DNA of 44,326 bases from positions 1 to 44,326 of the IMG/VR virus record IMGVR_UViG_3300035684_000006; one strand, given 5' to 3'. Under the pieces are notes generated by a model. That model was given only the letters and a program-made list of their open reading frames with translations. It was not told where the DNA came from and did not search any database. Of the stretch, positions 17,253-42,763 are shown piece after piece (the first letter of the stretch is position 1; each line of letters opens with the position of its first letter). The DNA comes from a virus. Both the position numbers and the translations under genes were made by a program.

Positions 17253-17263
17253 GGGTCGATTTG
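17253..17263 (-). promoter_or_regulatory. Late-strand motif, variant copy (CAAATCGACCC)
   Basis: One-base variant of the recurring CAAATCGCCCC motif, 28 nt upstream of the lipoprotein ATG at 17224, in the only sizeable gap between the tail-tip and lysis genes. TACCGT lies 16 nt downstream of it and could be a -10 box. Confidence 0.5.
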
Positions 17264-17266
17264 GCC

Positions 17267-20200
17267 TCAGCCTTCTAGCTTCGCCTCGCGTGCTCTCACG
17301 ATGACGCGGTGGATGATCGCGTTCGGCGGACCGCCGATGTTCGCGTCTCCGCCGATGTAGATCGTATCGAGAGGCGATGTGGCAATCGGGAAGGCGAGCG
17401 GGGCATAGGTCGCGCCGTCAGCGCTGCTCGCCGCGACCACGAGCCCGACCTGGTCGCCTGGCGACTCTGGCAGCGCGAGGCTGTTCCACCGTGCCCGCAG
17501 CTCGAAGCCCTGCGACCAGTCGAACGCCGATCCGGACGTGACCGTCGGCGCTCCGGCACCGTCGTAAAGCGTGAACAGCGGCGCGGCGGCGGCTCCTGTG
17601 CCGAGCGCCCGCAGACCCTCCACGTTCGATGACCAGTCGATCGCCGCAAGCGTCCTGTCTGCCGGCGGGGAGGCCGTCGACGCAGCGCCAGCGACGAACA
17701 GCTCGCCCTCGTGGTTCGCCTGCAGCGGCAGCGTCTCGATGAGGGTCCCGCCGGCGCCAGAGAGCGTCGTGCCGGCGTCGTGGATGGCGAATGGCGCGTC
17801 CGCGCCGAAGGCGGCCCACATGATGTGCGAGAGGTCGAACGAGCCGAGCGCTGACGATGCGAGCATGAAGCGCAGGTATGCCGTCGGCGTCGACGCGGCC
17901 CACGGACCGAGCTGCACATGGTACCGCTCCCAGCCGCTGCCGAGCACGACCGTCTGGCTGCCGATCAACACGTCACCGGCGTCGCGGAGCTCGACGATCA
18001 GGCTGCGCGAGACGCCGTCGTTCGTGCGCGCGAACAGCACGACCGAGAGTGGCGTGCCAGTGCCCATCGTGAGCCCGAGGCATCGCAGCCCCTTGCTGGC
18101 CGTGCCGTTCGTGACGCGGACGCCGCGTGCCAGCCCGGTCGCATCGACGAGCCCCTGCGTGAGCGTCGCTCCGGTGTCAGCAGCCCACGTCGCGCCGGCG
18201 GTGAAGTCGTTGCTGGGGATCTTGTTGGTCGACGCAGCCGCTGTGACCAGGCCGTAACCGCCGGAACCGGAGCCGATGGGAATGTGCCGCGCCGAGTACC
18301 GCAGCAGCGCCGCGCCATTCGGGATGCTCTCGTGGTCGGGGACGCTCGCCCACACGGCGCGGTCGCTCGTCCACGAGATACCAAGGCCGCTCGGATCCGC
18401 GCCGTACCGCAGGATCGCGGCGACCTCGCCAGCGGTCAGCGCGACGTCCCAGAAGAACACCCGAGAAATCTGAACGCCCCCGGCGGCGCTCGCGGGTCCG
18501 TCGCGTCCGATGCGGAGCGGCACGCCGCTGGCTGCAAGCGAGCCGAGGCCGGCCGTCGATGCCGTGAGCGTGTCGGCGGCCGTGTCGCTGAATAGCCGCA
18601 AGAGACCAGCGGCCGGATCGTTGACGAGGAAACCCCAGTGCGGCGCGGCGTCGGCCTGCTGCGCGGTCCCGGTGACCGTCGCGGTGCCACTTGCGCCCTG
18701 CAGCACAACCTGCAGCCGGCCGCTCGCGTCGAGGCGCATGCCCCAGCCGATGCCGGTCGCGCTCCGGCGGCCGACGAGCCCAGCAGCGCCCGACCACGTG
18801 GGCTCGTCGGTGCGGAACATCACCGCGATGGTGAACGGCTCGTCGAGCGCAAACACGCCGTACTCATCGCCCGTCGTGTCGTCGGGCCCGGTGGCCTGCA
18901 GATCGATAGCTGACGCCGCGATCGCGCGCGTGAACTGGTACGCCTCGGTTGTCAGCACGAAACGCTGCACCGGGTCCGGGTAGAGGATATGCGGCCCGAT
19001 GTCCCAGAAGCCGCGGAAATCGGCGGCGGGCGGCGTGCTTGCGTCGCTCCACGCGAACGTCGGGCCCGAGAGCGCGTGCGCGAGTTTGACCATCGGTTCC
19101 GCGTTCGCTCCGTCCCAGCTCATGAACGGTGTCGGCAGCGTTGGGAACGCAAGATGGAATTGCTGCCAGTTCTTCGGCAGCGGCTGCCACGATGGATCTC
19201 GGAAGTCGAGGTCACGCGTGAAGACCGGATCGAGGTCCTTGTGGATGAGCAGCGACAGATCGTCGAAACACGCCCCGCTGTTGCCCGAGCTGAGCGTGCG
19301 CACCGCGAGTAGCCGCACGCGAAGCGTCACCGTGTTGTCCGGAAGCTGCAGCGCAAGCCGCCGACGCTCCCATACATCGAGCAGCGGGAACCCTTGCACG
19401 AGGGCATACTCGGCACCCGTGGTCAGGCTCTCGAGGACCGCGCCCATGCTGTCCAGGGCCTCGAGCACGACCTCGCCGGTGTCGTTGTCGAGCGTCGTTG
19501 AGCGCGCGAGCTGCAGAAGCGCCGTGCCGTACTCGTAGCCGGCCGGGATGGCGACCTCCTGCTTGATCTCCGAGAACGCGAATGCGCCGCCCTGCGCCGC
19601 GCCGATCGTGCCGTTGCGGCTCGAGTAGGGGTTCGTCGTGTTGACCACGAAGCTGTTCGTCACGTTCGTCCAGCCGGTGAGCGCTCCGTCGAACGAGGGA
19701 TTGGTCAGCAGCTCAGCCGTCATCTGGCCGATCTGCAGCCGGATGCGCGTCACGCCGGCCCTCGGTCCGCCCACGTCTGGGCTCGCCTCGAGCGCCACCT
19801 CGACGGCAATCTTCGCCGTGTCGGGCGGCAGCGTCAACGACACCGAATCGCGCTGCCAGTGGCTGGCGGGGCCGGCCAGGCTATCGCTCGCATCGGCGAG
19901 CTCGACGTCGGCCGCATCCAGAGCACGGATCGTGACGGTGACCGCCTTGCTGCCGCCGTTGAAGTTGCGCGCGTAGTAGCTGACGGTCGCCGTGAGCCCG
20001 TTCGGCTTGTACCCGGTGACGTCGACGACTTGCTTGATCGTGGCGTCGCCGATGCCTTGGACCCAGAAGCCGCCGCTCGAGTAGCGGGGCAGGCAGTTCG
20101 GCCCGGTCGCGATCTCTACGGTGCCGGACGTCGTCGACCAGCCAGGCGTAAGCGCGCCGTACTCGAAGGAGCTGTTCGCGAGCAGGTCGCGCCAGTGCGG

Positions 20201-22819
20201 CGCATCGACGCGGACGACCGGCGACTGCCAGGAACGCGCGGCCGTGAAGCCGATCGTGCGGTAGCTGTCGAGCCGGATGTCGATCTCGCCGTGGCCGACC
20301 GGACCCAGGAGCGCGCCGACCGTCGACGGCTCCGTCAATCCCGTGTGACCGACGAGCGCGACGTCGCCCTCCTCCCCTCCGACCTTCTCGGCCGCGAGCG
20401 TCCAGGTTGTCCCCGGCTCGGCGTCCCACGCAGCCTCGTCGCCGCGCACCACCACGCCGGCGTCAATGCGGTTCTCGCGCGCGTCGACATCGAAGGCCCC
20501 CTCGAGCCGCGAGACGGCCTTGAACTCGCCGACGCGCGGGTAGTCCGGGGCGTCCGACTGCGGCCCCTCGGTGCCGTCCATGTCGAAGCCGGACAGCCGC
20601 ATGTCGGCAGCGCGGAGCGGCAGAGCCCGCCGGCCGACGGGGTTGATGAGCACGTCGTGGCTCGCGTAGCTGAGCCCGTCCGAGCCGTCGACGCCACCGA
20701 ACTGCGGCACCGCGTAGCCGCGTGCGTACTGGTTCGTCGCCCAGTTGCGGCGGCCCACGGCGAGGCTAGGCGTGATGAGAAAGAACCGCGTGCCGACCGG
20801 ATGCGTGACCGGCGCGGTGTCGAGCAGCCCACGCTGGACGTTGTTGAGGCAGAACTGCCCGCCGCCGAGGTCGGTGAGCGTCTCGTACGAGATGATCTCG
20901 CCAGTCTGGTACAGCTCGTCGCCGTTGGTGGGCGTGATGTTTGCGCCGCCGAGGAGCGCGAGATGGCGACCCGTCGCGCGGATCTCTGAGGCCGTCGCGG
21001 GGCGGATGAAGTCGAGCGCGTCGGGGCCACCGCCCGAGACGACACCCTCGAGTACGAGCCCCGTCGTGTCGTCGAACGGCTCGAGGTGGCGCGGGTACTC
21101 GACGGCAACCAGAGCCGTGACCGGGAACGGCTGCGGGGAAATGTCCGACGTCGTGCCGAACGAGTACGAGCCGGAACCGCCGGCCTGCGTGTCGACGCGC
21201 CACTGCGTAGCCGGGTCAGATGCCTCGGCCGCGGCGAAAGCCATCATGCTCTGCTCGCCGATCGACGGGATCGAGCCCGCGATCGCGGCGAGGCGCATCA
21301 GGTGGTAGGGCGCCTCGTCGAAGACGAAGTGGGTGATTGGGATGAGGGTGGTTGGGGTCGTGTCCGGCTCCGGGTCGCCCGCGAAGCCACCTACGGTCTG
21401 GTCGAACACGTCCCGGATGAGGCGCACCTCGATGGTCCCATCGGCGAGCTGGCCGAAGTTGACCTCGAGCACGCGGTGGATCTCGTTGTTGATCTGGTAC
21501 TGCGGGAGGTGCACCTTGACGACGTCGCCGAGCTCAAGTGCGTAGAACGCGCGGGTGACCTTGATCCGGATCGTGCGCAGCGGGCGTCCGACCACTGAGA
21601 GTTCTCGAGCGGCGATCTTTGCGGCGATCTCAGGCGTTGTGCACCCTGGCGCATCGAACGAGACCGGGCGTCGTTGGTTGCCGCGCGCGGTGACGTTCCC
21701 CTCCTTTTTCCAGGGCAAGATGTCGCGCTTATAGTCGTGCGCGCGCGATGTGAAGCTGACGCGGATCTCGTTGGGAGAGTCGCGCTCGTGGATGTCGTCG
21801 ACGTCGGGCCGCCCGATGACGTTGTCGGAGTTCATCACTGGCAGATCGTCCGGATCGTAGCCGCCGCGAATGAGCTTGATCGTGATCTTCCCAGTACTCG
21901 GCGCCTCGTAGACCACTCCGTCAATCTGAGACGTGATAGCGGCGAACACGCGCGCGGCGTCCTCGATCTGCTCGATGACTACGGAGCATCCGTGCCCCTC
22001 GGACACGAGAGTCACAGCGGCGGCCTGAAAGCTGGCGAGGTCGACGTCGTCTGGGTTGATGCCGAGTCCCCAGACTGGCCGACAAAGCAGATCGTAAAGC
22101 ACCCAGGCCGGGTTCGCATCGAGTCCGATCGGTTGCGGCCCCAGCGCACTCACCTCGATAGCGGTCGCGAGGACGCGCGGGCTGCTGCCGAGGCCGCCGA
22201 GGGTCGGCTGTGTCGCGGCGACCTGCCCAGGCGTCGCCTGCACCGACAGAAGCATCCGGTGCCGGTACCCCGGGATGTCAGCGGCGCTGATGCCCGTCAC
22301 CGCCATACTCAAGGCGATCGGCCTGCCTGCGATACTCTGATCGGCGCGGCCGTCATAGAAGTGGACTCCGGCCTCGAGAATCGTCGCGCCGCCGGGCCTG
22401 ATCAGAACCTGCGCTTTCTTGTCGTGGCGAAGACCAACTACGCCGCTGCTCAGGAGTGGAAGCCTCCGGTCGCCATACCAGAGCGTTCGCGCAACCGGAG
22501 GCGTGGTAGACCGCCATGAACTCCACGGCGCTGTCGCTTCGTCCCACGGCGGGACCCCGACTGCGAAGAGCATGTCCGCGCGGTACCGGAACCCGCTGTC
22601 CACGAGAGTCGCTCCTTGCCTCCCATACCACACGAGCACGGGAGTCACGCGCACCGTCCCGGCCACGTAGGGGATCGGGCTGCCGACGCTTGCGAGCGTG
22701 AACTCAAGTCCCTCTGCCTGAGGCTTTGGCAGTTTGTTCTCATCGTCACGCAGGAGTCGGCTGACGACCCAAAGACCAACCGTGATGCCGAGTTGAGCGG
22801 CGATTGCTGGGAACCCCAT
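17267..22819 (-). CDS. Giant tail-tip / host-attachment protein with glycan-binding-like modules
   Basis: 1850 residues, the largest gene. The N-terminus is hydrophobic (about 1-22). The first 500 residues have the features of putative tail proteins of the Phage-tail_3 type (LYDLLCRPVWGLGINPDDVD, FAAITSQIDGVVYEAPSTGKI, SVVGRPLRTIRIKVTRAFYALEL, LGDVVKVHLPQ). Two beta-sandwich modules start at about 880 (LLANSSFEYGALTPGW) and 1036 (LLTNPSFDGALTGW), both of the NxSFE...W type found in carbohydrate-binding modules. A LamG/concanavalin-like domain covers about 1320-1480 (FTIAVMFRTDEP, LRIGRD, VFFWDVALTAGEVAAIL). Another jelly-roll-like part is near 1570-1660. Expected at the tail tip, binding host surface sugars. 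Confidence 0.85.
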   Translation of the reverse strand: MGFPAIAAQLGITVGLWVVSRLLRDDENKLPKPQAEGLEFTLASVGSPIPYVAGTVRVTPVLVWYGRQGATLVDSGFRYRADMLFAVGVPPWDEATAPWSSWRSTTPPVARTLWYGDRRLPLLSSGVVGLRHDKKAQVLIRPGGATILEAGVHFYDGRADQSIAGRPIALSMAVTGISAADIPGYRHRMLLSVQATPGQVAATQPTLGGLGSSPRVLATAIEVSALGPQPIGLDANPAWVLYDLLCRPVWGLGINPDDVDLASFQAAAVTLVSEGHGCSVVIEQIEDAARVFAAITSQIDGVVYEAPSTGKITIKLIRGGYDPDDLPVMNSDNVIGRPDVDDIHERDSPNEIRVSFTSRAHDYKRDILPWKKEGNVTARGNQRRPVSFDAPGCTTPEIAAKIAARELSVVGRPLRTIRIKVTRAFYALELGDVVKVHLPQYQINNEIHRVLEVNFGQLADGTIEVRLIRDVFDQTVGGFAGDPEPDTTPTTLIPITHFVFDEAPYHLMRLAAIAGSIPSIGEQSMMAFAAAEASDPATQWRVDTQAGGSGSYSFGTTSDISPQPFPVTALVAVEYPRHLEPFDDTTGLVLEGVVSGGGPDALDFIRPATASEIRATGRHLALLGGANITPTNGDELYQTGEIISYETLTDLGGGQFCLNNVQRGLLDTAPVTHPVGTRFFLITPSLAVGRRNWATNQYARGYAVPQFGGVDGSDGLSYASHDVLINPVGRRALPLRAADMRLSGFDMDGTEGPQSDAPDYPRVGEFKAVSRLEGAFDVDARENRIDAGVVVRGDEAAWDAEPGTTWTLAAEKVGGEEGDVALVGHTGLTEPSTVGALLGPVGHGEIDIRLDSYRTIGFTAARSWQSPVVRVDAPHWRDLLANSSFEYGALTPGWSTTSGTVEIATGPNCLPRYSSGGFWVQGIGDATIKQVVDVTGYKPNGLTATVSYYARNFNGGSKAVTVTIRALDAADVELADASDSLAGPASHWQRDSVSLTLPPDTAKIAVEVALEASPDVGGPRAGVTRIRLQIGQMTAELLTNPSFDGALTGWTNVTNSFVVNTTNPYSSRNGTIGAAQGGAFAFSEIKQEVAIPAGYEYGTALLQLARSTTLDNDTGEVVLEALDSMGAVLESLTTGAEYALVQGFPLLDVWERRRLALQLPDNTVTLRVRLLAVRTLSSGNSGACFDDLSLLIHKDLDPVFTRDLDFRDPSWQPLPKNWQQFHLAFPTLPTPFMSWDGANAEPMVKLAHALSGPTFAWSDASTPPAADFRGFWDIGPHILYPDPVQRFVLTTEAYQFTRAIAASAIDLQATGPDDTTGDEYGVFALDEPFTIAVMFRTDEPTWSGAAGLVGRRSATGIGWGMRLDASGRLQVVLQGASGTATVTGTAQQADAAPHWGFLVNDPAAGLLRLFSDTAADTLTASTAGLGSLAASGVPLRIGRDGPASAAGGVQISRVFFWDVALTAGEVAAILRYGADPSGLGISWTSDRAVWASVPDHESIPNGAALLRYSARHIPIGSGSGGYGLVTAAASTNKIPSNDFTAGATWAADTGATLTQGLVDATGLARGVRVTNGTASKGLRCLGLTMGTGTPLSVVLFARTNDGVSRSLIVELRDAGDVLIGSQTVVLGSGWERYHVQLGPWAASTPTAYLRFMLASSALGSFDLSHIMWAAFGADAPFAIHDAGTTLSGAGGTLIETLPLQANHEGELFVAGAASTASPPADRTLAAIDWSSNVEGLRALGTGAAAAPLFTLYDGAGAPTVTSGSAFDWSQGFELRARWNSLALPESPGDQVGLVVAASSADGATYAPLAFPIATSPLDTIYIGGDANIGGPPNAIIHRVIVRAREAKLEG

Positions 22820-22821
22820 GG

Positions 22822-23667
22822 CTAACCTCTCGCAACTCCAGCGCCGGTCGGCGCGGCCGGGTTGTCGTCAGGAATGTGCGGCTCACCGCCGAACCGAGGC
22901 ACGTTGTTGAACTTCACCTTGCACCCGTGTTCGCCAAGCAACGACCGATCGCATCCGGCGAAGACATCGAGCGCGTCGCCGTTGGCGAGCTCGCGGAATG
23001 GAAAGTCCAGCGCTATCGTCGTGCCGATCTGGCTGACGACGGTCCGCCTCTCTCCATCTGCAACGCGGATGATCTTTCCGTCCCGCGCCCATGCGTCAGG
23101 CTTGCCGCTCATGCTCGACACTATCAGGGCCGAGCCGTCGGCGCTGACCGAGGCGACCGTGGGCGTGATCCGAAAACCACCAGCCACCAGATCGACTCCA
23201 CATCCGACGTCGCCGAGCACGTGCGGACACCGCCGCTCGGCCAGCTTGATTGGCAACCCGCAGTCGAAAGCTAGGTCAATCTTGTTGGGAACGCGAATGA
23301 CGGTTGCCGTTCTGCTCGTGCTCGTGCCGCCGATATAGCCCTGCCACCAGACTCGCGAACCGGTGTCGCCGAGGTGGATGCGGCGGATAGTGACGAGCGC
23401 ATTTTGCGGCGGGAGTCCACCCTGGCGCAGTTCGATGGCCAGGTCGTGGTCCAGCGCCAGCGAGACGGTCACCTCCCGGACATTTCCCCCGATGGGCACA
23501 AGCTCGAGGTCGCTGCTACTGATCGGGGCGACGCTGTACACGTCGCCTCCGAAGGTCTGGTCAGCGTCGCCGGTGCACAGCCTGTATGTCGCGCCGGGCA
23601 ACGAGAAGGTAAACAGGTCAACGCGCTGGGCGTCTTCCACGCTGCGCTCAACGCTGTCGTAGGTCAC
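22822..23667 (-). CDS. DUF2163 / BR0599-family tail hub protein
   Basis: 281 residues from a GTG. The N-terminal half (LFTFSLPGATYRLCTGDADQTFGGDVYSV..., TVSLALDHDLAIELRQGG) and the C-terminal signature GCDRSLLGEHGCKVKFNNV then FGGEPHIP are typical of phage proteins with DUF2163 plus Phage_BR0599 domains. In gene transfer agents the homologue is a tail hub subunit with metal-binding cysteines. Its stop is 3 nt from the tail-tip start. The gene that usually precedes it (distal tail) is separated from it by the 4.3-kb island. Confidence 0.85.
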   Translation of the reverse strand: MTYDSVERSVEDAQRVDLFTFSLPGATYRLCTGDADQTFGGDVYSVAPISSSDLELVPIGGNVREVTVSLALDHDLAIELRQGGLPPQNALVTIRRIHLGDTGSRVWWQGYIGGTSTSRTATVIRVPNKIDLAFDCGLPIKLAERRCPHVLGDVGCGVDLVAGGFRITPTVASVSADGSALIVSSMSGKPDAWARDGKIIRVADGERRTVVSQIGTTIALDFPFRELANGDALDVFAGCDRSLLGEHGCKVKFNNVPRFGGEPHIPDDNPAAPTGAGVARG

Positions 23668-23681
23668 GCTGCACCCCGCGC

Positions 23682-23711
23682 TTGACCAACGGCGAGATCG
23701 GACCGTAGCAT
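23682..23711 (+). promoter_or_regulatory. Promoter of plus-strand lipoprotein gene
   Basis: TTGACC (23682-23687), 18 bp, TAGCAT (23706-23711); the ATG follows after 6 nt and no ribosome-binding site is seen. An independent promoter opposing the late strand. Confidence 0.5.
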
Positions 23712-23717
23712 CGGCGG

Positions 23718-24026
23718 ATGCGGATCACGATGCTCGCGGCGATGTTGGCGACGGGGTGCGGCTCGGAACCGTCCAACTATGACCTTTCTGAAGAGTGCCC
23801 GGGTTGGCGGGGGGTCTACGACGACGTCGGGATCGTGATTGCGAAGTGCGCCCACGCCTGCCCGCGTCCGCCGAGTGGTCAGGAGACGTGCTTCTACGAG
23901 CCCGACCAGGAGTGCACGGTGGTCGAGGTTGATGGGCTTAGGGGGTGCTGTATCCCGGGGCCGGACTTCGTCGATCCTCAGGCTCCGGATGACCACTTCG
24001 TAGTCAGCTTCGTGACGTGCCTCTGA
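23718..24026 (+). CDS. Small Cys-rich lipoprotein, accessory gene
   Basis: 102 residues: MRITMLAAMLATGCGSEPSN is a short lipoprotein-like signal with the Cys at 14. The mature part is acidic with nine further cysteines (CPGW, CAHAC, CFYEPDQEC, GCCIPG), suggesting disulfides outside the cytoplasm. Inserted against the late strand with its own promoter, the pattern of a moron gene expressed in lysogens. A role in host envelope change or exclusion of other phages is inference. The antisense ORF is rejected. Confidence 0.7.
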   Translation: MRITMLAAMLATGCGSEPSNYDLSEECPGWRGVYDDVGIVIAKCAHACPRPPSGQETCFYEPDQECTVVEVDGLRGCCIPGPDFVDPQAPDDHFVVSFVTCL

Positions 24027-24076
24027 AGCGATCCGTGCCGTGGACATGCCGCCACCATCGCGCCGAGCACTGAGAC

Positions 24077-24087
24077 GGGGCGATTTG
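24077..24087 (-). promoter_or_regulatory. Late-strand motif CAAATCGCCCC
   Basis: Exact copy of the recurring motif. The next late gene starts at 23667, 410 nt away, because the plus-strand lipoprotein gene lies between. A minus-strand ATG at 24047 is 29 nt away, the usual spacing, but its ORF looks like a shadow. Confidence 0.65.
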
Positions 24088-24103
24088 CGCCTCCGCCGTT
24101 TGT

Positions 24104-24132
24104 TTGCGCACCCGGCGCGCTGCGCCTAGGAT
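24104..24132 (+). promoter_or_regulatory. Promoter of plus-strand membrane protein gene
   Basis: TTGCGC (24104-24109), 17 bp, TAGGAT (24127-24132); ATG at 24141 after 8 nt, without a ribosome-binding site. Confidence 0.5.
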
Positions 24133-24398: not shown

Positions 24399-24399
24399 C

Positions 24400-32655: not shown

Positions 32656-33008
32656 CTGCGCTCCTTCGACGCGCGCTCGGCCGCGTCGCGCTCTGCGCGC
32701 GCTGCATCGAGCCTCTGGATGACGGAGATGAGCATGGCGGTCAGGTCACGGTCGACGCGGTGGTGGGTTGCCCATGCGATGACGGCGCGGAACGGAACGA
32801 AGCCGACGACACCGAAGCCCAGCGGGCGCTCTCCTTCGAGGTCTCGCCACGCATCGATGACCATCTGCATCGCCGCGTCCATCTGTGGCTCGGCGGCGAG
32901 AACCTGGGTCTCGAAGCCTGGGAGCGCTGCTCGCCTGTGGAGGCGCATCTGCCGGCGTACCGGCAGCGCCTCCTCTTCCCAGGCGAGCCACGCCGCTACC
33001 CGTTTCCC
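32652..33008 (-). CDS. Tail assembly chaperone, frameshift extension (T part)
   Basis: The -1 frame opens at the slippery site and runs to 32652, adding about 117 residues (KRVAAWLAWEEEALPVRRQM..., QMVIDAWRDLEGERPLGFGV, a helical end ERDAAERASKERR). An ATG at 32948 exists but has no ribosome-binding site, and the reading frame before it is protein-like, so expression as a G-T fusion is preferred. It ends overlapping the tape measure GTG, as in lambda-like phages. Confidence 0.8.
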   Translation of the reverse strand, partial: GKRVAAWLAWEEEALPVRRQMRLHRRAALPGFETQVLAAEPQMDAAMQMVIDAWRDLEGERPLGFGVVGFVPFRAVIAWATHHRVDRDLTAMLISVIQRLDAARAERDAAERASKERR

Positions 33009-33433
33009 AGCGCCTCGACCGTGCCAAGCGGCGCGCGGAAGTGGTCGGCGTCGAGCGCGTAGTTAAACGCGCGCGCGATGAGATCGCCGGCGCCCTTGCG
33101 GTTCAGCACCGAGAGCAGAGACTCGACCTCGTGCGGAGAGAACGCGATCGGCTGGCCGTCCTTGCCGATCACCTCTTCCCAACCGACGATCACTGTCTCG
33201 GCAAAGACGGGGATGAGCGCCTCACGCGTCTGCTCGTTCGTGGGGTCGCCAGCGGTGGCGCGGAGCTGGTTTTCTGCCTTGCGCCGCGCATTCATGAACG
33301 CCGGGTTGCTCTCGCCGGCGTGCTGCATGATCAGCACGAGCGGGCGCTGAGAGCGCACGTTGACGCCCTGGAGCGTGAAGCGGACGGTGCCGTGCGGCCT
33401 GAGATCGTTGAACAGGTCGTTGTAGTTGGACAT
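32996..33433 (-). CDS. Tail assembly chaperone (G part)
   Basis: 145 residues from MSNYNDLFNDLRPHGTVRFT. Follows the tail tube gene and precedes the tape measure, the conserved slot of tail chaperones. Contains the helical PAFMNARRKAENQLRAT and EALIPVFAETVIVGWEEVIG patterns typical of these proteins (they bind the tape measure during tail assembly). Ends in GNG-stop just after the slippery heptamer. The late motif at 33462 is 28 nt upstream. Confidence 0.8.
   Translation of the reverse strand: MSNYNDLFNDLRPHGTVRFTLQGVNVRSQRPLVLIMQHAGESNPAFMNARRKAENQLRATAGDPTNEQTREALIPVFAETVIVGWEEVIGKDGQPIAFSPHEVESLLSVLNRKGAGDLIARAFNYALDADHFRAPLGTVEALGNG
33002..33008 (-). promoter_or_regulatory. Slippery heptamer GGGAAAC for -1 frameshifting
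   Basis: In the G frame the codons are CTG GGA AAC GGG TAG, i.e. G-GGA-AAC in X-XXY-YYZ form, 3 nt before the stop. The -1 frame (AAA CGG GTA GCG...) stays open for about 117 codons. This is the established mechanism for tail chaperone fusions in lambda (GGGAAAG) and relatives. Confidence 0.85.
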
Positions 33434-33461
33434 GCCGTCATCCTCGCGCCCGACGGGGGAC

Positions 33462-33472
33462 GGGGCGATTTG
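33462..33472 (-). promoter_or_regulatory. Late-strand motif CAAATCGCCCC
   Basis: Exact copy, 28 nt upstream of the tail chaperone ATG at 33433, in the gap after the tail tube gene. Confidence 0.7.
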
Positions 33473-33552: not shown

Positions 33553-35067
33553 CTACGGCGCGGGCGGCAGGTACGCGAACAGCGTGAGTGCCGCGACGAT
33601 GCTCGTCGTCGGGTCGCGGTAGCCCGGGACGTCCAGCGACATTCGCACGGCGTCGTTCGCGGCGAACTGCGGGCCGTCGCCGCTGTTGGCCTTGACGCAC
33701 GGCATGTCGAGCACCCAGCCGCCCTGGTCGTTGCGGCCCTGCACGTCGAACGTGCAGTCCGGGTACGAGCGCATCGCCGCAGCGAGCTCGTACGTCGTGA
33801 AGTACGCCTCCAGGCTCACGCTCGGCTTGTACTTGCCGTAGATGAGATCGACGGGACCCATCTCTCCCTGCACTTCGCGCGGCGAGATGTCGTGCTCCAT
33901 CGTGAACGTCCAGCTATTCACCTCGGCGACGAGCGAGGCGTCGCTGCTCTTGACCGCCAGCCGGCATCGGACGAGCTGCGGGGAAGCGGTGTGGAACAGG
34001 CGCGCCGCCATCGGTCGCCGTGGCGTGGCAGCACCAGTGGCGCGGTCGGCGGCCAGCACCGGGTCGCGCACGTCCTTCGCGACGAAGCTCGCGGTCGTCG
34101 TGATCTTCGACTCGATCGGCGCGTTGATCGTGAACGTCTTCAGCGCCATGCCCTTCGCGTTCGTGAACGACGAGACGCCTGAAGGCCCGGCCCCGAGCAT
34201 GGTCAGCTCGCCGTGCAGCGTCGGCTCGCGGTACTTGGCGGTGTCGTCGAGCGAGACGTTGCGGAACCAGTGGTAGCCGAAGAAGACCTGAATCGTCTTG
34301 CCCGTACCGTCGTCGGCGGCACCGACCGTCCAGTTGCGGCGATTGAGCGTGATGAGGTTGGTGGTCACGCTCTCGACCTGTGCGCTCCGGTTGTATGCAG
34401 CCGTCGCGAACTGTGTCGCCGACGTGGCTCCGCCGATCTTGATCCACGACTCCTCGGCGATGTTCAGCGTCGTGAAGTCGAGCGTCGTCGAGATGAGGTT
34501 GCCGTCGGCGTCGATCTCGATGTCGCCGGTCGCGCCCTGCACGCCAGCAATCTTGAGCGTCGCGCCGAGCGTGGCTGCGACGCTCTCGGCGACGAGGCCG
34601 GACGCCTTGATTTCGAGGTTCGTGCTCGAGGCTCCGACGAGCTTGAGGCCGTTGTTGGCGAGCGTGGGGAATCCGTTCGCATACACGAGCAGACCTTGCG
34701 TCAGCGCGCCGCTTGCGGCGACCGTGTACCCGGTGCTCGTGACGGCGGTCGGGCGGAAAAGCGCCACGCCGGTGTTGCCGCTGACCTCGGGCGTCGAGCG
34801 GAACATCGCCGACGCGAGCAGATCGAGCCAGTCGACGTTCAGATCGTGGTCGATCTCCGGCGTGGCGTCGAAGCCGACGACGTCGCCCGCCTCCATCGTC
34901 GCGTACACGGACAGCGGATCGCGCGCGACCGTCGTGAAAACGTCCTGCCAGCGCTTGATCCCGCCAGGGTTCGGCTGAACCTGGACCCAGCCGGTGGTGG
35001 GCTGAGCCCCGAACGACGACTCGGGGGCGAGGGTGAGAGTGCTCGGCTCGGTGAGGACGCGTCCCAT
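33553..35067 (-). CDS. Major tail tube protein
   Basis: 504 residues. Begins TLTLAPESSFGAQPTTGWVQ and contains SLSVYATMEAGDVVGFDATPEID-like repeats near 55-80 and TLHGELTMLGAGPSGVSSFT near 285, both typical of tail tube proteins of the long (about 50-kDa) type; beta-rich throughout, ending in SLDVPGYRDPTTSIVAALTL. It self-assembles into the tail tube around the tape measure. Position after the tail terminator and before the chaperones supports this. The late motif is 29 nt upstream of the ATG. Confidence 0.85.
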   Translation of the reverse strand: MGRVLTEPSTLTLAPESSFGAQPTTGWVQVQPNPGGIKRWQDVFTTVARDPLSVYATMEAGDVVGFDATPEIDHDLNVDWLDLLASAMFRSTPEVSGNTGVALFRPTAVTSTGYTVAASGALTQGLLVYANGFPTLANNGLKLVGASSTNLEIKASGLVAESVAATLGATLKIAGVQGATGDIEIDADGNLISTTLDFTTLNIAEESWIKIGGATSATQFATAAYNRSAQVESVTTNLITLNRRNWTVGAADDGTGKTIQVFFGYHWFRNVSLDDTAKYREPTLHGELTMLGAGPSGVSSFTNAKGMALKTFTINAPIESKITTTASFVAKDVRDPVLAADRATGAATPRRPMAARLFHTASPQLVRCRLAVKSSDASLVAEVNSWTFTMEHDISPREVQGEMGPVDLIYGKYKPSVSLEAYFTTYELAAAMRSYPDCTFDVQGRNDQGGWVLDMPCVKANSGDGPQFAANDAVRMSLDVPGYRDPTTSIVAALTLFAYLPPAP

Positions 35068-35096
35068 GCAGAGAGCGTCGGGCCGAGGAGGTCAGC

Positions 35097-35107
35097 GGGG
35101 CGATTTG
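35097..35107 (-). promoter_or_regulatory. Late-strand motif CAAATCGCCCC
   Basis: Exact copy, 29 nt upstream of the tail tube ATG. GACGCT lies 17 nt downstream of the motif and 6 nt before the ATG, a poor but well-placed -10 candidate. Confidence 0.7.
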
Positions 35108-36034: not shown

Positions 36035-36405
36035 CGCCGGCCCCTGTACCGCGCCGTCGCCGTCGGGATACCCGGCGCAGACACCTGGACGTCGCGCGCT
36101 CGAACACCGGCACGACCGCGGCGGGCCCGTACGTTAACGACGGCCTGAGCCACGGCGGCCTCGACGAAGCCAGCCGGCGCTTGCTTGGACGAGCCCTCGT
36201 TGAGGTAACGGACGTGCTCCTCGTCGTTGCGCACGGAGACGGCACCCGCGGCGCCCGGCTCAATGCGCCAGCCCGCGCGGGCTGCGCCCGTGTCGACCGG
36301 GGTGACCTCGCGCAGGATGCCGAGCGTCTCGTTGGCGAGGTCGACAGCGGCGCCAGTGACGAAGCGCCCGAGCCGATCGCGGAGCGCGTCGGACTGGCGC
36401 GTCAC
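36031..36405 (-). CDS. HK97 gp10-like neck / tail-connector protein
   Basis: 124 residues. VTPVDTGAARAGWRIEPGAA, then VRNDEEHVRYLNEGSSKQAP and AGFVEAAVAQAV are the family's hallmark (VDTG.lr.sw....N...Ya.yvE.Gt....p..fl..a). It joins head and tail. Coupled to both neighbours by ATGA. Confidence 0.85.
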   Translation of the reverse strand: MTRQSDALRDRLGRFVTGAAVDLANETLGILREVTPVDTGAARAGWRIEPGAAGAVSVRNDEEHVRYLNEGSSKQAPAGFVEAAVAQAVVNVRARRGRAGVRARDVQVSAPGIPTATARYRGRR

Positions 36406-36755
36406 CGGCGATGGTGGCGCTTGGAGCTCGGCGCCGGCGCGCGCGGCGGATCAGGCGTGACGACGTGCGGCGGCGGCGGCGAGATGCTGACCTCGCGCTC
36501 GGCGCGCTGCTCGGGTGATATCCGCGCATGGTCCTCACCGTGGGTCGGCTGGGCGGCGGCGGCGAGCTGCGGCGTATCCGAGACGGTGTCGATCTGGCCG
36601 GCGACCCACAGCTCCGCGGCGTCGGTCAGTGTCAGGCCGAGGTCCCCCCAGGGGAACGGCTCGCCACGGCGAAAACGTCGCGAGCCCGCGACGAGTGTCT
36701 CGCTCGCGACGACCTGCGGCGCCTCCGGGTCGAATGGGACGCGCGTGGCGCTCAT
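36402..36755 (-). CDS. Hypothetical protein after the capsid gene
   Basis: 117 residues. RFRRGEPFPWGDLGLTLTDA is a short domain seen in small proteins next to capsid genes; the second half is Pro/Arg-rich and likely disordered. Starts just after the capsid stop. Function unknown. Confidence 0.6.
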   Translation of the reverse strand: MSATRVPFDPEAPQVVASETLVAGSRRFRRGEPFPWGDLGLTLTDAAELWVAGQIDTVSDTPQLAAAAQPTHGEDHARISPEQRAEREVSISPPPPHVVTPDPPRAPAPSSKRHHRR

Positions 36756-36757
36756 GG

Positions 36758-37855
36758 CTACGGCGTGACCATGCCCGTAAACAGCGTGCCGGCCTCGTCG
36801 GTAACGACGACGAACCCGTTGTACACGTCGATGACGTGCGCCCAGGAGCCGCCCGGACCGGCATCCTCCTTGCGGAACCTGCGGATCTGGACGCCCTCGC
36901 CATTGGCCCCGGACACGCCGGACCAGACGGCACGCGCGAAAGCGGGCGGCTGCGGGGTCGTCGGCGTCATGATCGCGTTGGCGGTCTCCATGCCGGCGAC
37001 CGGGTTCACGAACAGGAGTGCGCTCGCCTCCGGCACGATGTACTGGTTGTCCGGCCGCTCGGTGGCGTCGGAAGTCATGACCTTCGCGTTGTAGATTGCC
37101 TCGGACACGGCGCAGTACCGCACGCCGATGAGGCGCGCGAACTCCTCGAGCTCGGCCTGGCGAGCCATCGCGATGAGCGCGTTGCCGATCGAGGACCCGG
37201 CCACGCCGACGATCTGCGACTTGACCTTGGCGCTGTTGCGAACCTTCTCCCAGAGGATCGCGCCGAACACCAGGCCCATCTGCTTCTTGGACGCGCCGGT
37301 ACGCTTGCTCAGGATGCGCGCCTCGGCGGAGAACGCGGCGATCGGGTCCGCGCTCGCGTTGTCCATGTAGATTCGGTTCATCGCGGTCGTGCCCTCGGAC
37401 GCGCTGTCCGAGCCGGCGCCGGTGACCGTGCGATACCAGACCGTCGACACGCCGCCCGAGACCGAGAAGAACTCCTCGGCCATACGCCGCTCGAGGTGAA
37501 GGTTCGCCTTGTAGGCGAGTACCGTCGGGATCGTGATCTCGGGGTTGATCTCGATGTCGGACGCCGCGACCTGCGCGTCGTTGAGGTCGTACTCGAGCGA
37601 CCTGGCGTCGGTGTCGAACAGCTTGTTCGAAGTCCGCCAGCCCGCCTTCTGCGCCGGGGCCGTCGGGCCGCGCGGCTGCAGCTCGTCGCGATTGAGGTCG
37701 CCGCTGTTGAAGACGGGGTACAGCCCCGACGGCTTGTTGACCATGAGCTTCGGCACCATCATCGGCGCGACGAAACGCTCGTCGCTCTGGATGCGGCGCA
37801 CGGCGATCCCGGTCTGGATCTCGTCGACGTAGTTGTTGCCGAACAGGGGCTGCAT
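36758..37855 (-). CDS. Major capsid protein
   Basis: 365 residues. Starts with an N-arm (LFGNNYVDEIQTGIAVRRIQ) and a strand FVAPMMVPKLMVNKPSGLYP, then LAYKANLHLERRMAEEFFS (spine-helix region), KQMGLVFGAILWEKVRNSAK, and ends in a P-domain-like strand run HVIDVYNGFVVVTDEAGTLF. This layout belongs to the HK97-fold coat proteins used with a protease/scaffold and a separate decoration protein. Position between decoration and neck genes is canonical. Confidence 0.87.
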   Translation of the reverse strand: MQPLFGNNYVDEIQTGIAVRRIQSDERFVAPMMVPKLMVNKPSGLYPVFNSGDLNRDELQPRGPTAPAQKAGWRTSNKLFDTDARSLEYDLNDAQVAASDIEINPEITIPTVLAYKANLHLERRMAEEFFSVSGGVSTVWYRTVTGAGSDSASEGTTAMNRIYMDNASADPIAAFSAEARILSKRTGASKKQMGLVFGAILWEKVRNSAKVKSQIVGVAGSSIGNALIAMARQAELEEFARLIGVRYCAVSEAIYNAKVMTSDATERPDNQYIVPEASALLFVNPVAGMETANAIMTPTTPQPPAFARAVWSGVSGANGEGVQIRRFRKEDAGPGGSWAHVIDVYNGFVVVTDEAGTLFTGMVTP

Positions 37856-37888
37856 TGCGTGGCTCCGTGAGGTGGTGAAGTGGCCGCG

Positions 37889-38647
37889 TTACGCGCGCGG
37901 GATCGCGAGGATGAACAGCTGCGCGGCCATCGAGCCGGCGGCGCGGGTCGCGACGACCTTGAAGCCCGCGTTCGCCTCGAGCGTGCGCGTGGCCTTGTCG
38001 ATCGTCGACGCGTCGGTCTTCGTCTTGTCGACCGCGGCGGCCATCGCATTCGTGATGGCGACGTCGGAAGCGTTGTTGATCTGGATCGTGTTGCCGGCGC
38101 CTGCGGTGTCCTTGATGTTCCAGACGGCAACGATCTCGATCTTCTCGGCGTTGACGTACGTATACGTCGCGGTCGCCGCGTTCGGGATGTCGATCACGAT
38201 CAGGCCGACGCCGTTGAGCCGGGTTGACGCCGGCGAGATCGAAGCGTTCGCGATCGTCGTCAGCGCCGCTGAGCGCGAGTACGGAGGCTTGATCTTCACG
38301 ATATCGCCGGCCGCCGTCGACGCCTCGAGCGCAACCGCATTGACGACGGAGCCGCCGGTGGCCGCGACGGCGCGCCCGTCTGCGTCCGTGGTCAGGTCGA
38401 CGTTCGCTGCGAAGGCTCCGCCGGTCTCGACGCAGAACTGCCGGTCGACGTAGAAGTCGACGGCATCGCCGGCCGCCGGGTTCTTCTTGTAGTGGGCGCC
38501 GATGACGCCTGCTGCCGCCTCACCGGCGACGGTGCAGACGTTGACGCCGGTCGCAGTCAGCTTGCCGAAGCGGCGGAACTTCGTGGTGAGGTCCGCCGCC
38601 GCGATCATGCTGATCGGGTAGGTCATCCCATCGATGGTTGCGGTCAT
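37889..38647 (-). CDS. Capsid decoration / cement-like protein
   Basis: 252 residues from MTATIDGMTYPISM. Residues 20-110 contain LTATGVNVCTVAGEAAAGVI and DAVDFYVDRQFCVETGGAFA, resembling DUF2190-type capsid cement proteins. Residues 150-252 are a second domain (GLIVIDIPNAATATYTYVN, WNIKDTAGAGNTIQINNA, GFKVVATRAAGSMAAQLFIL) often fused to head proteins. Placed between scaffold and capsid genes. Confidence 0.75.
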   Translation of the reverse strand: MTATIDGMTYPISMIAAADLTTKFRRFGKLTATGVNVCTVAGEAAAGVIGAHYKKNPAAGDAVDFYVDRQFCVETGGAFAANVDLTTDADGRAVAATGGSVVNAVALEASTAAGDIVKIKPPYSRSAALTTIANASISPASTRLNGVGLIVIDIPNAATATYTYVNAEKIEIVAVWNIKDTAGAGNTIQINNASDVAITNAMAAAVDKTKTDASTIDKATRTLEANAGFKVVATRAAGSMAAQLFILAIPRA

Positions 38648-38679
38648 GGTCTGGTGGTTCCCTTCGCGTGGATGGCCGG

Positions 38680-40284
38680 TTACTTGGTCTGGCCGTACGA
38701 GCGGGTCGCGTCGTACGCGGACTTCAGCTCGCGGCCCTTCGCGGTGCCGAGAAAGCGCTCGAGCGCCGCGCCGCGGTCGGTGATGTTGTTGGCCTTGGCG
38801 TACTCGTCGACGCCGCGGTTCCACGCCCCGAGCGCGTCGCCGGCGTGTTCGACCGGATCGGCGCCGTCGTTCGCGCCCGGCGCCTTGCCGCTGCGCTGAA
38901 CGAACTCGCTCGCGGCCGTGAGGGACTGCAGCGACTGTTCGAGCAGAGCCGGATCGCCTGCCTTGCGAAGCGCGCGCACGATGTTCTCGCGGACCGCGTC
39001 CGCACCGGGCAGGTGCGCAAGGCGTGAGCGGCAGAGCGTCGCGATCTCGGCGCTCTCGGCGGCGGCTGCCGCTCGCGCGAGCGCATCCTCGTTGCGCTTG
39101 TTCTGCTCGGCCCCCTGCTCGGCGAGCTTCGCGAGCTGCAGCGCCTTGGCGCCCTCGCTGCGCCGGATCGTGAGGCCGGTGAGCTTGCCCTCGAACTCGA
39201 CCGGGTCCGCGGCGAGCGCGGCCTGTACGGCGGACTCTCGTTCGGCGGCGGACAGGCCGAGGAACGCCTCGCGCTCCTGGTCGTCGAGCCCCGCGGCGTG
39301 CTGCCGGTGCGCCTCGGGCATGGTGAGCGCGAGCGCGAGCGCCTTGCGGAGCGCGCCGAGCTGCTTCGACTGGTCGGGGTTCTGGTCGGCCATCTGGATG
39401 TTCTCCGCCTGGGTCTCGGGTTGTGGGTCAACGCTACGGAGTGCGGACGAAGGGGGCGATTTGTCCGCGGCCAGCGCATGCGCCGCGTCGTCCTCGTCGG
39501 GTTGACCGTCGAAGCCACAGCCCGGAAAGCGCGCAGCGAGCCGCCCGCGGAGCTGGTCCATCCCCGCCGACTCGACGCCCGGAACAAGCACCCACGAGGT
39601 CTCGATGAGGACGGCCTTGGTGTAGATCCACCGCACGACCTCCGCGCCGTCGCGCTTGCGTACTTTGCGCTTCGTGCCGTCCTCGTCGGTGACCGTCGCC
39701 AGTCGATCGCCTGGCCAGTGCCAGCACTTCTCCATCACCGGCGCGTTGCACGCCGAGCACAGCACCGGACCGGTCGGGTGCCAGCCGATCGAGACCGAGG
39801 TCATCAGCCCGCGCAGGTACGCGTCAACAGCCCACGGGGCGGTGAGACGCGCGACTTGGAAGATCTGCCGGTGCCCCTCCTGCGGTGTCTTCGTGTCGCT
39901 CGAGACGATGGTGCCGCCGCGGGCCAGCGCGTTGCGCTGCTCGTGATCGCGGATGAACGGGTTACGCCGTCCGGAGCGACCGAGCGACGGCATCTCACCG
40001 TCACGGAAGCAGACGAAGTTGCGGTTGTCCTTGTCGGGGAACTTCTCGAAGTCCCACTGCTCGTAGGCGAGGAGCGGGACGTCGATCTCGACGTACTCGT
40101 TGCGCGCGCACTTCGCGAGCAGCTCCTCGCGCACCTCCGGAGTGATCGGCGCGCCGGCGTACAGCGCGGGCGACACGTCCGGATCGAGGGTGACCGAGGC
40201 GCGGCACAACATCGGGGCCGCCTCGAGAAGCTGCTCGAGCGATGGGCGCTTGATCTCGGGGTTCCTCGTCACGCCACGCAGCAT
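38680..40284 (-). CDS. Prohead protease fused to scaffold, with internal start
   Basis: 534 residues. The first 250 follow the pattern of prohead serine proteases: PFIRDHEQR with His114, GGTIVSSDT, IFQVARLTAPWAVDAYLRGL, MTSVSIGWHP with Ser163/Ser165, and LIETSWVLVPGVESA. A CxxC pair (CSACNAPVMEKC) is inserted after the serine. After a linker at 255-297, Met298 (39393) begins a helical, Gln/Glu/Ala-rich scaffold-like part. GGAG lies 9 nt before this internal ATG and the late motif 59 nt before it, so a separate scaffold (237 residues) may be made, as with lambda C/Nu3. Confidence 0.8.
   Translation of the reverse strand: MLRGVTRNPEIKRPSLEQLLEAAPMLCRASVTLDPDVSPALYAGAPITPEVREELLAKCARNEYVEIDVPLLAYEQWDFEKFPDKDNRNFVCFRDGEMPSLGRSGRRNPFIRDHEQRNALARGGTIVSSDTKTPQEGHRQIFQVARLTAPWAVDAYLRGLMTSVSIGWHPTGPVLCSACNAPVMEKCWHWPGDRLATVTDEDGTKRKVRKRDGAEVVRWIYTKAVLIETSWVLVPGVESAGMDQLRGRLAARFPGCGFDGQPDEDDAAHALAADKSPPSSALRSVDPQPETQAENIQMADQNPDQSKQLGALRKALALALTMPEAHRQHAAGLDDQEREAFLGLSAAERESAVQAALAADPVEFEGKLTGLTIRRSEGAKALQLAKLAEQGAEQNKRNEDALARAAAAAESAEIATLCRSRLAHLPGADAVRENIVRALRKAGDPALLEQSLQSLTAASEFVQRSGKAPGANDGADPVEHAGDALGAWNRGVDEYAKANNITDRGAALERFLGTAKGRELKSAYDATRSYGQTK
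39453..39463 (-). promoter_or_regulatory. Late-strand motif inside the protease-scaffold gene
   Basis: Exact CAAATCGCCCC within coding sequence (codes for DKSPP), 59 nt upstream of the internal scaffold ATG at 39393. TAGCGT lies 16 nt after it. Confidence 0.65.
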
Positions 40285-40302
40285 CGGCGGCTAGGCGTGA
40301 TC

Positions 40303-40313
40303 GGGGCGATTTG
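40303..40313 (-). promoter_or_regulatory. Late-strand motif CAAATCGCCCC
   Basis: Exact copy, 18 nt upstream of the protease ATG at 40284; the shortest spacing of the set. Confidence 0.7.
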
Positions 40314-40328
40314 CCCGCGTCCGGGGGG

Positions 40329-40700
40329 CTACCTGGCGACTTCGAGCATGTACACCGCAGCGTCAGGATCGCGCTCTGGTACTGCCGCGATCCGGTACGT
40401 CACCCCCTCGATCGTCACCTTGTCGCCGCTCGTCGGGATCTGCTTGCCGGCGATGGTCGCGCCGAGCAGCGCCACCTTGCGAGCCTCGCGCCGCGTCGTC
40501 GACCCCGGCACGTAGCCGCTGCCGTACTCGTCGATCCAGCCGCGCGCGCGGTAGCTCGTCTCGGTCTGGGCGAGCCCGCCAGAGATGGAACCGGGCGTGC
40601 GGGTCCCGGTCGTGACCTTGATGAGCGTCGCGGGCTTGACCTGCCTGCCGAGCCCCTTGGCGATCTGCTTGGCGATGAAGCCCGAGAGGAGCTTTGGCAT
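40329..40700 (-). CDS. Head-closure / stopper-like protein
   Basis: 123 residues: basic start (PKLLSGFIAKQIAKGLGRQV), TLIKVTTGTRTPGSISGGL, then a beta-rich part ALLGATIAGKQIPTSGDKVT and IEGVTYRIAAVPERDPDAAV. The G.TI.G..IP..GD.V...G..Y.I motif is usual in small beta-barrel head-completion proteins. Follows the connector gene. Confidence 0.7.
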   Translation of the reverse strand: MPKLLSGFIAKQIAKGLGRQVKPATLIKVTTGTRTPGSISGGLAQTETSYRARGWIDEYGSGYVPGSTTRREARKVALLGATIAGKQIPTSGDKVTIEGVTYRIAAVPERDPDAAVYMLEVAR

Positions 40701-40703
40701 CGG

Positions 40704-41315
40704 CTAGAACCCTCCCGACCGTCGCGTCAGCGTCGGGCACTCGAACAGCGAATCACTGCGGGATCCCGTCGCGAGACCGCCGAACGAGCCCCCAGCCACG
40801 GCTGACAGCCCGGCGCCTAACAGCCACATCCCGAGCAGGCTCTGCACGACCGTCGGCAGCGTCGCCGCCGTTCCGGCGCGCACCGACGTCGGCCCGAACA
40901 GCTCGAGCTCGGCGCTGCCGGCCTTCATGCGCTTGATGTTCGAGGACTGGTCGGCCTCGCTCAGCGCCGACGGATCCTCGGCGATCAGCGCCGCAAGCTC
41001 GAACACGGCCTGAGCGACCCGCGCGAGCTGATAGCCGTCGCTCGCGGTGGTCTCGCCGTCGGCTTCGGTCAGGTCGGTGCGCGGGAACGCCAGCGTCGTG
41101 CCGCCGGCGCCGGAGCGCGTGCCCTTCCACCGCTGCCGCTCGATGTACCGTGTCGCGTCAGCGAGACGACGCTTTCGGTCGTCGCTGTCTTCGGCAAGAG
41201 CGAGGTACGCAGCGGCGGCATCGCTCGAGGACGTGAACAGGTAGGCGTCACATGCGTCGAGACCTCCGTAGACCTCGACAGTTGCGCCGTTGCTGAACGT
41301 GACGGTGAAGGTCAC
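40704..41315 (-). CDS. Head-tail connector, DnaT-like family
   Basis: 203 residues from a GTG overlapping the portal stop (GTGA). VEVYGGLDACDAYLFTSSSD, then KRRLADATRYIERQRWKGTR and TLAFPRTDLTEADG are the standard pattern of phage proteins annotated as DnaT-like or head-tail adaptors. It docks below the portal. The C-terminal 60 residues are Gly/Ser/Ala-rich. Confidence 0.75.
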   Translation of the reverse strand: MTFTVTFSNGATVEVYGGLDACDAYLFTSSSDAAAAYLALAEDSDDRKRRLADATRYIERQRWKGTRSGAGGTTLAFPRTDLTEADGETTASDGYQLARVAQAVFELAALIAEDPSALSEADQSSNIKRMKAGSAELELFGPTSVRAGTAATLPTVVQSLLGMWLLGAGLSAVAGGSFGGLATGSRSDSLFECPTLTRRSGGF

Positions 41316-42721
41316 TGCTCGTCCTCCTCTCCGGCGGCCGGCGCGCCCTCCCCCTGGTAATCGCTCGGCCCTCCGGACGCCGATCGCGCCGATCGCCACG
41401 CTGCGATGTCCTCGTCGTCTGGTTCGGGAGCGGCCGGCAGTTCCTCGCGGGCGCGCAGCACGTTCTCCGCCGGGTCGCCTGGCTTGAGCTTCGCGTCGGC
41501 GAGCATCTTCAGCATCTCGGCCGCCTGCTTCGCGCTCGAGCGGGCAACGCTCTGATGCTGCAGCTCTGGGAAGAGGCGCTCGTCGGTGATTCCGTTGCGA
41601 GCGAGCAGGTCCGGGATGATGTCGCGCTCGGCGTCGTCGCTCAGGTCGTCGAGGGAGCTGTCGATGCGGATCGTGAAGAGGCTCGTCTTGTCGGCGCTGG
41701 CCGCGTACGCCCCGCTCGTGCCGGCGCTACCCATGAGCAGGTGCTCGGCGGAGAGCACGATCGCCATGAGGTGGTTGCACTCGGCGAGCGCCTTGGCGAG
41801 GTCAGGCAGTGCGCCGGTCGCCTGCCGCATCATGTCGACGGACCACTTGAAAACCGTCGACGGCGTGCGCTGCCCCGTCTGCGCGTTGTCCGCAAAATAG
41901 GGCATGCTCTCGAGGAGCAGCGTCTTGTTCGGCGTGCGGACACGCTGCTCCGCGAACTTGCGGATCTCGGCGGTGCGCATCATGACGTGCTCGAGAATCT
42001 TGGTCTGGTCGCCCGGGTATAGGCGGTCCCCTTCCTGAAACAACTCGTCGAGGGGCGCGCGCGGGAGCGGCACGCCGTTAAGGTCGGTGTCGAACCCGAG
42101 GCCCTGCAACTGCAGGTACCGGTCGAAAATCTCGGCGAGCTTGACGAGGTGCCGGAGAAGGCCAACGCCCTGCGGGCTCTCGCCGATCGCGCCCTCCTGG
42201 CTATAGAACAAGTCCCGGCGCGCGATCGGGAACTCGGCGCCTGAGCGGCTCCGCTGCACGACGCCTTCCCAGGGCTCCGTCTCGAGCGGCTTCGTCCACC
42301 GCTCGATGGTGTGCTGCGGGCGATGCGCGAGCTCCGACAGCACGACAAGCCCGTCGTCGCGGCGGCGCCACCCTTTCGCGTGGAGCGCGAAGCCGCGGAA
42401 GCGCTTCATGGCCTGTTTCTTCACGACGCTGCGCCAGCGCGTCGGCATGCGCGCTCCGATGAGTCCCTCTTGCACGATCTCGGCAGCGCGCACCGCGTCT
42501 GCGCCACCGGCCTTGTTCGGCGCGGCCTCCCACTTCGACGAGCCCGCTAGGTCGAGCCAGATGCCCACCGCCGCCGCGATGACCGTCGTGTCCGCGATGA
42601 GGTTGTCGTACGTGACCCACTGATTCGAGCCGACCAGCGCTGGGCGTCGCTCACCAACGTCGACGAGAAACCCGCCGTAGGCGTAGACGCCGTCGGAGCC
42701 GGGTGCGCGCGTCGCTTCCAT
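41312..42721 (-). CDS. Portal protein
   Basis: 469 residues from MEATRAPGSDGVYAYGGFLV; the TTG three codons earlier is less likely. Portal features: VTYDNLIADTTVIAAAVGIW near the start, FALHAKGWRRRDDGLVVLSE, QGVGLLRHLVKLAEIFDRYL, a long helix region, RTPNKTLLLESMPYF, and VLSAEHLLMGSAGTSGAYAA, as in the DUF935/Mu gp29-related portal group. Twelve copies would form the DNA entry ring at one capsid vertex. The C-terminus is acidic. Next to terminase and connector as expected. Confidence 0.87.
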   Translation of the reverse strand: MEATRAPGSDGVYAYGGFLVDVGERRPALVGSNQWVTYDNLIADTTVIAAAVGIWLDLAGSSKWEAAPNKAGGADAVRAAEIVQEGLIGARMPTRWRSVVKKQAMKRFRGFALHAKGWRRRDDGLVVLSELAHRPQHTIERWTKPLETEPWEGVVQRSRSGAEFPIARRDLFYSQEGAIGESPQGVGLLRHLVKLAEIFDRYLQLQGLGFDTDLNGVPLPRAPLDELFQEGDRLYPGDQTKILEHVMMRTAEIRKFAEQRVRTPNKTLLLESMPYFADNAQTGQRTPSTVFKWSVDMMRQATGALPDLAKALAECNHLMAIVLSAEHLLMGSAGTSGAYAASADKTSLFTIRIDSSLDDLSDDAERDIIPDLLARNGITDERLFPELQHQSVARSSAKQAAEMLKMLADAKLKPGDPAENVLRAREELPAAPEPDDEDIAAWRSARSASGGPSDYQGEGAPAAGEEDEQ

Positions 42722-42752
42722 CGAGAGCAAGGCTAGCGGCGCGAGGACAGGC

Positions 42753-42763
42753 GGGGCGATTCA
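42753..42763 (-). promoter_or_regulatory. Late-strand motif, variant copy (TGAATCGCCCC)
   Basis: Differs at the first two bases, where it overlaps the TGA stop of the upstream gene (42763-42761). The portal ATG is 31 nt downstream; TAGCCT lies 17 nt from the motif and 8 nt before the ATG, the best -10 candidate of the series. Confidence 0.6.

Follow-up and report, generated by a model that had tools for sequence, protein, structure and literature searches.

The window analysed here is a 44,326-nt stretch of viral DNA (positions 1 to 44,326 of IMG/VR record IMGVR_UViG_3300035684_000006) in which portal, protease-scaffold, tail tube, tail assembly chaperone and tail-tip genes are accompanied by seven copies of an asymmetric 11-bp motif (Table 1). 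Five copies are exact and two are near copies, all on the - strand, as the initial annotation had listed them. Over the entire record the exact 11-mer was found five times, always in reverse orientation, and a reversed control was found 0 times. Copies with up to two mismatches were not in excess by count (14 observed versus 14.7 expected), so that the two near copies count through their context alone, whereas the core AATCG[AC]CCC occurs seven times in the window against 0.81 expected from composition. Among the literature matches listed for this core, none had a phage context. Elsewhere in the window, a release-factor (RF-1) domain (PF00472, E 7e-10) is present in a small phage protein encoded at positions 8636-9007, and a tRNA-Arg (TCT) on the + strand (14458-14529) adjoins leftward lysis-region genes. 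Across positions 1-4000 the GC content falls to 60-65% and the genes are unlike those of phages, with a Schlafen AlbA_2 protein at 464-1318; this segment, next to the serine integrase (6289-8067), may be accessory DNA or DNA of the host.

Table 1. Promoter elements and associated genes in the window, and zinc-ribbon family members in related records (record:coordinates)
Feature	Coordinates	Strand	Remarks
Portal promoter, upstream box TGAATCGCCCC	42753..42763	-	near copy, 2 mismatches
Portal promoter, -10 TAGCCT	42730..42735	-	17 nt past box; 8 nt to ATG 42721
Portal protein	41312..42721	-	predicted leaderless or near-leaderless start; PHROG 113, Pfam Portal_Mu
Protease-scaffold promoter, upstream box CAAATCGCCCC	40303..40313	-	exact
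Protease-scaffold promoter, -10 GATGCT	40280..40285	-	17 nt past box; 7 nt to GTG 40272
Protease-scaffold gene	38680..40272	-	Peptidase_S78_2 (XkdF) matches in relatives
Internal scaffold promoter, upstream box CAAATCGCCCC	39453..39463	-	exact; within protease-scaffold gene
Internal scaffold promoter, -10 TAGCGT	39431..39436	-
Shine-Dalgarno GGAG of leadered internal scaffold start	39403..39406	-
Separately started scaffold domain	38680..39393	-	ATG 39393, in frame with long gene
Tail tube promoter, upstream box CAAATCGCCCC	35097..35107	-	exact
Tail tube promoter, -10 GACGCT	35074..35079	-	6 nt to ATG 35067
Tail tube protein	33553..35067	-	Pfam Phage_tube_2
Tail assembly chaperone promoter, upstream box CAAATCGCCCC	33462..33472	-	exact
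Tail assembly chaperone promoter, -10 GAGGAT	33440..33445	-	6 nt to ATG 33433
Tail assembly chaperone	32996..33433	-	PHROG 313
Upstream box CAAATCGCCCC before 127-aa gene	24077..24087	-	exact; gene heads tail-tip genes
-10 GATGGT of 127-aa gene promoter	24054..24059	-	6 nt to ATG 24047
127-aa protein, no assigned function	23664..24047	-	first gene of unit before J-like protein
Upstream box CAAATCGACCC (A variant)	17253..17263	-	near copy, 1 mismatch; right past J-like gene end
-10 TACCGT of 175-aa gene promoter	17231..17236	-	6 nt to ATG 17224
175-aa lipoprotein-like protein	16697..17224	-	first gene past J-like tail protein
Zinc-ribbon family member	L185:4513-5118
Zinc-ribbon family member	L186:2619-3236
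Zinc-ribbon family member	L188:6336-6950
Zinc-ribbon family member	L340:172-861
Zinc-ribbon family member	L216:7213-7950

Site alignment placed a NANNNT hexamer 16-17 nt 3' of the 11-mer at all seven sites, with a start codon 6-8 nt past this -10 element at six of the seven; the hexamers that the initial annotation had pointed out at three sites are present, but the element is general rather than confined to those three. The motif-to-ATG distances proposed earlier (28, 29, 28, 29, 31 and 18 nt) were correct on recomputation. The last of these runs to ATG 40284 at the protease-scaffold site, where the promoter geometry points instead to an in-frame GTG (40272) 12 nt downstream of that ATG, and the counterpart of this gene in the relative G001 is also GTG-started with an identical promoter offset.

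To place this arrangement on a statistical footing we used 31 copies of AATCG[AC]CCC from the window, G001, G386, G387, L186 and L187, records mostly found via portal homology; this set is the only fair test, yet two G001 sites in it were pattern-selected. NANNNT followed with a spacer of 16 nt (10 copies) or 17 nt (19 copies) in 29 of the 31 (binomial p 8e-35) and occurred only three times over the remaining spacers between 8 and 25 nt combined, while ATG or GTG stood exactly 6 nt past the -10 element in 18 of these 29 (p 4e-21). The four long records contain 7, 7, 9 and 4 copies of the 9-mer itself, where 0.8, 1.2, 1.1 and 0.5 would be expected. When all records were pooled, the -10 element was present at 62 of 67 9-mers and missing at five, with spacers of 17 nt in 44 and 16 nt in 18, and the distance from -10 to start was exactly 6 nt in 38 of the 62 and 5-9 nt in 52; the loci contributed by promoter scans add breadth to the catalogue but not strength to the test, because the -10 element and the start were part of the search pattern. 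A weight-matrix scan of four genomes, which the initial annotation had proposed, scored true sites at 18.3 bits or more and everything else at 17.2 bits or less, a separation rather than an independent proof since the matrix was trained on the same sites.

The -10 element has the A2 and T6 of a sigma70-type hexamer at a fixed 16-17 nt from the upstream element, although G or C mostly takes the place of T at its first position, which makes it weaker than TANNNT. Upstream, the box is AATCG[AC]CCC by definition at the 62 listed sites and is not a canonical TTGACA. The distance of about 12 nt between the -10 element and the start, where no Shine-Dalgarno sequence is needed, is that of leaderless, TA-led genes, for which TANNNT approximately 12 nt 5' of the start is an accepted mark (PMC3160421).

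Among isolate phages we found no relative at the DNA level, and proteins reached only ~21-33% identity. One true relative, G001 (IMGVR_UViG_3300015263_000969; portal 63%, tube 58%), came from a promoter-pattern scan of viral contigs, and a portal profile search returned L186 (57%), L187, L188/G387, L189/L216/G386 (~36%) and many others at no more than 33%. G001 carries the promoter at the portal, protease-scaffold, internal scaffold, tube and chaperone genes and at two further places. G386 and G387, at ~35-43% protein identity, also carry it at orthologous genes, including in G386 the place equivalent to the window's 175-aa lipoprotein-like gene; the protease-scaffold and internal scaffold promoters of G387 are weaker and fall below the separating line of the weight matrix. 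Counts of the strict pattern in L186, L187, L188, L189 and L216 were 1, 1, 3, 3 and 3, with 0 for eight permuted motifs, and it was found 0 times in the 27 portal relatives at or below 33% identity, where the permuted controls gave one match in total. Further sites came from the full records of G386 and G387. In G386, whose tail block is inverted, the orientation of the sites follows that of the genes and a back-to-back divergent pair lies at the reversal. The initial annotation would have been contradicted by a motif missing from, or randomly placed in, close relatives; we found it kept at orthologous gene starts.

A second promoter-only scan, with the A variant, recovered multi-site contigs, ten of them new (L234/L255, L236, L247, L257, L266, L269, L275, L290, L319 and L340) besides parts of G386 and G388, all of them relatives by their capsid and tail proteins; its single-site matches were mostly unrelated contigs. 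Outward-reading box pairs were seen where opposed tail blocks meet (L290:1720-1745, L236:2460-2496, L226:8746-8788). A pattern scan of the genome collection gave isolated single matches across many phyla, which we took as chance.

The site within the protease-scaffold gene, which had been annotated as preceding an internal scaffold start, fits the pattern as a conserved internal promoter of a scaffold with a Shine-Dalgarno leader. The long gene is assigned through relatives that match Peptidase_S78_2; the window's own copy has no Pfam match but aligns with these relatives over its scaffold part. The internal promoter is kept in the window, G001, G386, G387 (weak), L255, L247, L266, L275, L319 and L340; the leader is mostly ~15-40 nt with a Shine-Dalgarno sequence, and L255 and L247 appear leaderless. 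In the coding frame the box reads K-S-P or K-S-T (window, G001, L216, L319), and the choice of P or T tracks each phage's own C or A box variant, which suggests that the DNA rather than the peptide is conserved here. The promoter would yield a scaffold mRNA of its own, in most cases with a short leader and Shine-Dalgarno sequence. In lambda C/Nu3, the scaffold likewise arises from a start nested in frame within the protease gene; the nesting is similar, but here the inner start has a conserved promoter of its own.

We conclude that the motif very probably forms the upstream element of a class of phage promoters with the layout AATCG[AC]CCC, 16-17 nt, NANNNT, 6 nt (5-9), ATG/GTG. Sequence statistics and conservation establish this layout; the start points, the timing and a reader of the box are inferred. 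The box would lie at about -39 to -29 of the predicted promoter, and the -10 element would most likely be recognised by host RNA polymerase through its main sigma factor. Judged by this geometry, the transcripts would have their 5' ends on the start codon or no more than 1-3 nt away, and most downstream genes would as a consequence be translated from leaderless mRNAs. The late promoter with near-leaderless mRNAs that was one of two readings in the initial annotation is thus strongly supported, both by the -10 and start geometry and by the orthologous placement. Because one copy in G386 stands ahead of helicase-type genes, the promoter class is not strictly late.

In a search for the host, the tube profile matched 2 of 379 Myxococcota-group genomes, with a partial, weak match in 1 of 249 Gemmatimonadota and none in 396 Actinomycetota or 247 Acidobacteriota genomes. 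The best match, on a contig of a Myxococcota genome (G101:C31), is a motif-free relative; this 64 kb contig (L221-L224) is a permuted relative of the phage without the motif, and its tube and Hc1 genes have ordinary Shine-Dalgarno leaders. TANNNT is strongly enriched 6-9 nt before starts in the Myxococcota genomes G079, G290 and G058 (L362-L379, L381, L397-L401), not in G214 and at most weakly in G158, so that leaderless translation would suit this group.

One alternative is that the box belongs to a host programme adopted by the phage, its reader being an alternative sigma factor or a regulator of the host. A C immediately precedes the -10 element at most phage sites (20/29) and also in some Myxococcota leaderless promoters (14/17 in G079, G290 and G205; 17/33 in a wider set), and a few host matches resemble genuine leaderless promoters, for example those of GpsA (G205) and of a secreted protein (G079, G290). 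It is also in keeping with a host reader that no phage sigma factor was recognised among the proteins searched: sigma families were absent among the leading matches for 114 non-structural proteins from three relatives, a search that a very divergent sigma might escape. Against this, the full promoter occurs at ~0.5 per genome in 284 Myxococcota (maximum ~4), which is near chance, in a phylum that may not be that of the true host, and AATCG is present in only 2 of 33 Myxococcota leaderless promoters, correctly placed in neither, so the box is not their usual -35. We regard a host reader as a tentative possibility. That the box is a plain sigma70 -35, with TCGMCC standing for TTGACA at a spacing of 17-18 nt and no special factor, would agree with the spacing and start geometry and with the matched T, G and C of TTGACA; we consider it improbable, as nine near-invariant positions across phages exceed a -35 hexamer and the host-type leaderless promoters show TTG, not TCG, at -35 (4/33).

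The other reading of the initial annotation, a binding site of stoperator or start-associated type, went unsupported. Stoperators, or repressor sites that silence the late genes in a prophage, would be compatible with short, asymmetric sites that all lie along the direction of transcription, and with a serine integrase that makes the phage probably temperate. Stoperators do not need the fixed spacing to -10 elements and start codons seen here, however, and the sites recur at equivalent orthologous genes in diverged phages, which leaves this explanation very unlikely. Start-associated sequences acting in translation share with the motif a position close to gene starts, and those of Cluster K mycobacteriophages likewise form a repeated asymmetric motif near many genes, but they are located 3-7 bp away from the start codon and include AGGAG (PMC3203893). 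The box lies 28-31 nt upstream without a Shine-Dalgarno or AGGAG sequence and is predicted to fall outside the mRNA, and we find a role of this kind scarcely credible.

Under the promoter reading, a dedicated factor would recognise the box, as it is nearly invariant, unlike TTGACA and too strict for an ordinary -35; on balance we lean slightly towards a phage-encoded activator or sigma-like protein. A zinc-ribbon protein with two cysteine sets adjoins the terminase small subunit in G001, L186, G386, G387 and L340. Its gene was present in all five motif-bearing lineages that cover the terminase region, and none was seen in the motif-free relatives examined; the window's own terminase-side region falls beyond the end of the record, which places the window outside this comparison. 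The family, which is undescribed, combines two sets of zinc-binding cysteines with a conserved GR-R--G--RG stretch (members in Table 1); it matched no Pfam or PHROG family and had no significant PDB fold match, its structure model is of low confidence (pLDDT 69), and a profile search of viral sequences returned known members only. We propose this protein as a candidate reader of the box, though the association could simply reflect common descent. A fuller scheme, in which the virion genes of an uncultured clade are as a rule leaderless and run from a dedicated promoter whose box is read by the zinc-ribbon protein to redirect host RNA polymerase, is speculative and in our view rather unlikely as a whole.

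Several known systems resemble parts of the proposed promoter. T4 middle promoters combine a host-type -10 element with a phage-specific MotA box that replaces the -35; they are similar in this combination and differ in the box, its position and the class of genes. The late promoters that a phage-encoded sigma factor recognises in phages 7-11 and phiEco32 are likewise phage-specific and repeated before late genes; those of 7-11 are bipartite (GTAAtg-16-aCTA), and transcription starts 6-9 nt away from the downstream element (PMC8948821). Their sequences are different and 7-11 encodes a recognisable sigma factor, whereas here none was recognised and predicted leaderless starts are the rule. Leaderless TA-led genes of bacteria, whose transcripts start with the gene's first base (PMC3160421), and the predicted leaderless SigA promoters of phage Corndog (PMC4351075) also place a -10 element anchored by A and T 12 nt ahead of the start codon. 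Unlike both, the promoters described here add a strict box at the -35 place that marks structural genes throughout the clade.

Two start codons are corrected by these results, GTG 40272 for the protease-scaffold gene and ATG 39393 for the internal scaffold. The promoter sequence is specific enough to fetch more members of this uncultured phage group from contig collections. As judged from the genomes of this group, its capsid and tail genes seem as a rule to be expressed from leaderless messages. If it is true that the zinc-ribbon protein reads the box, it would add a new kind of transcription activator to those of phages.
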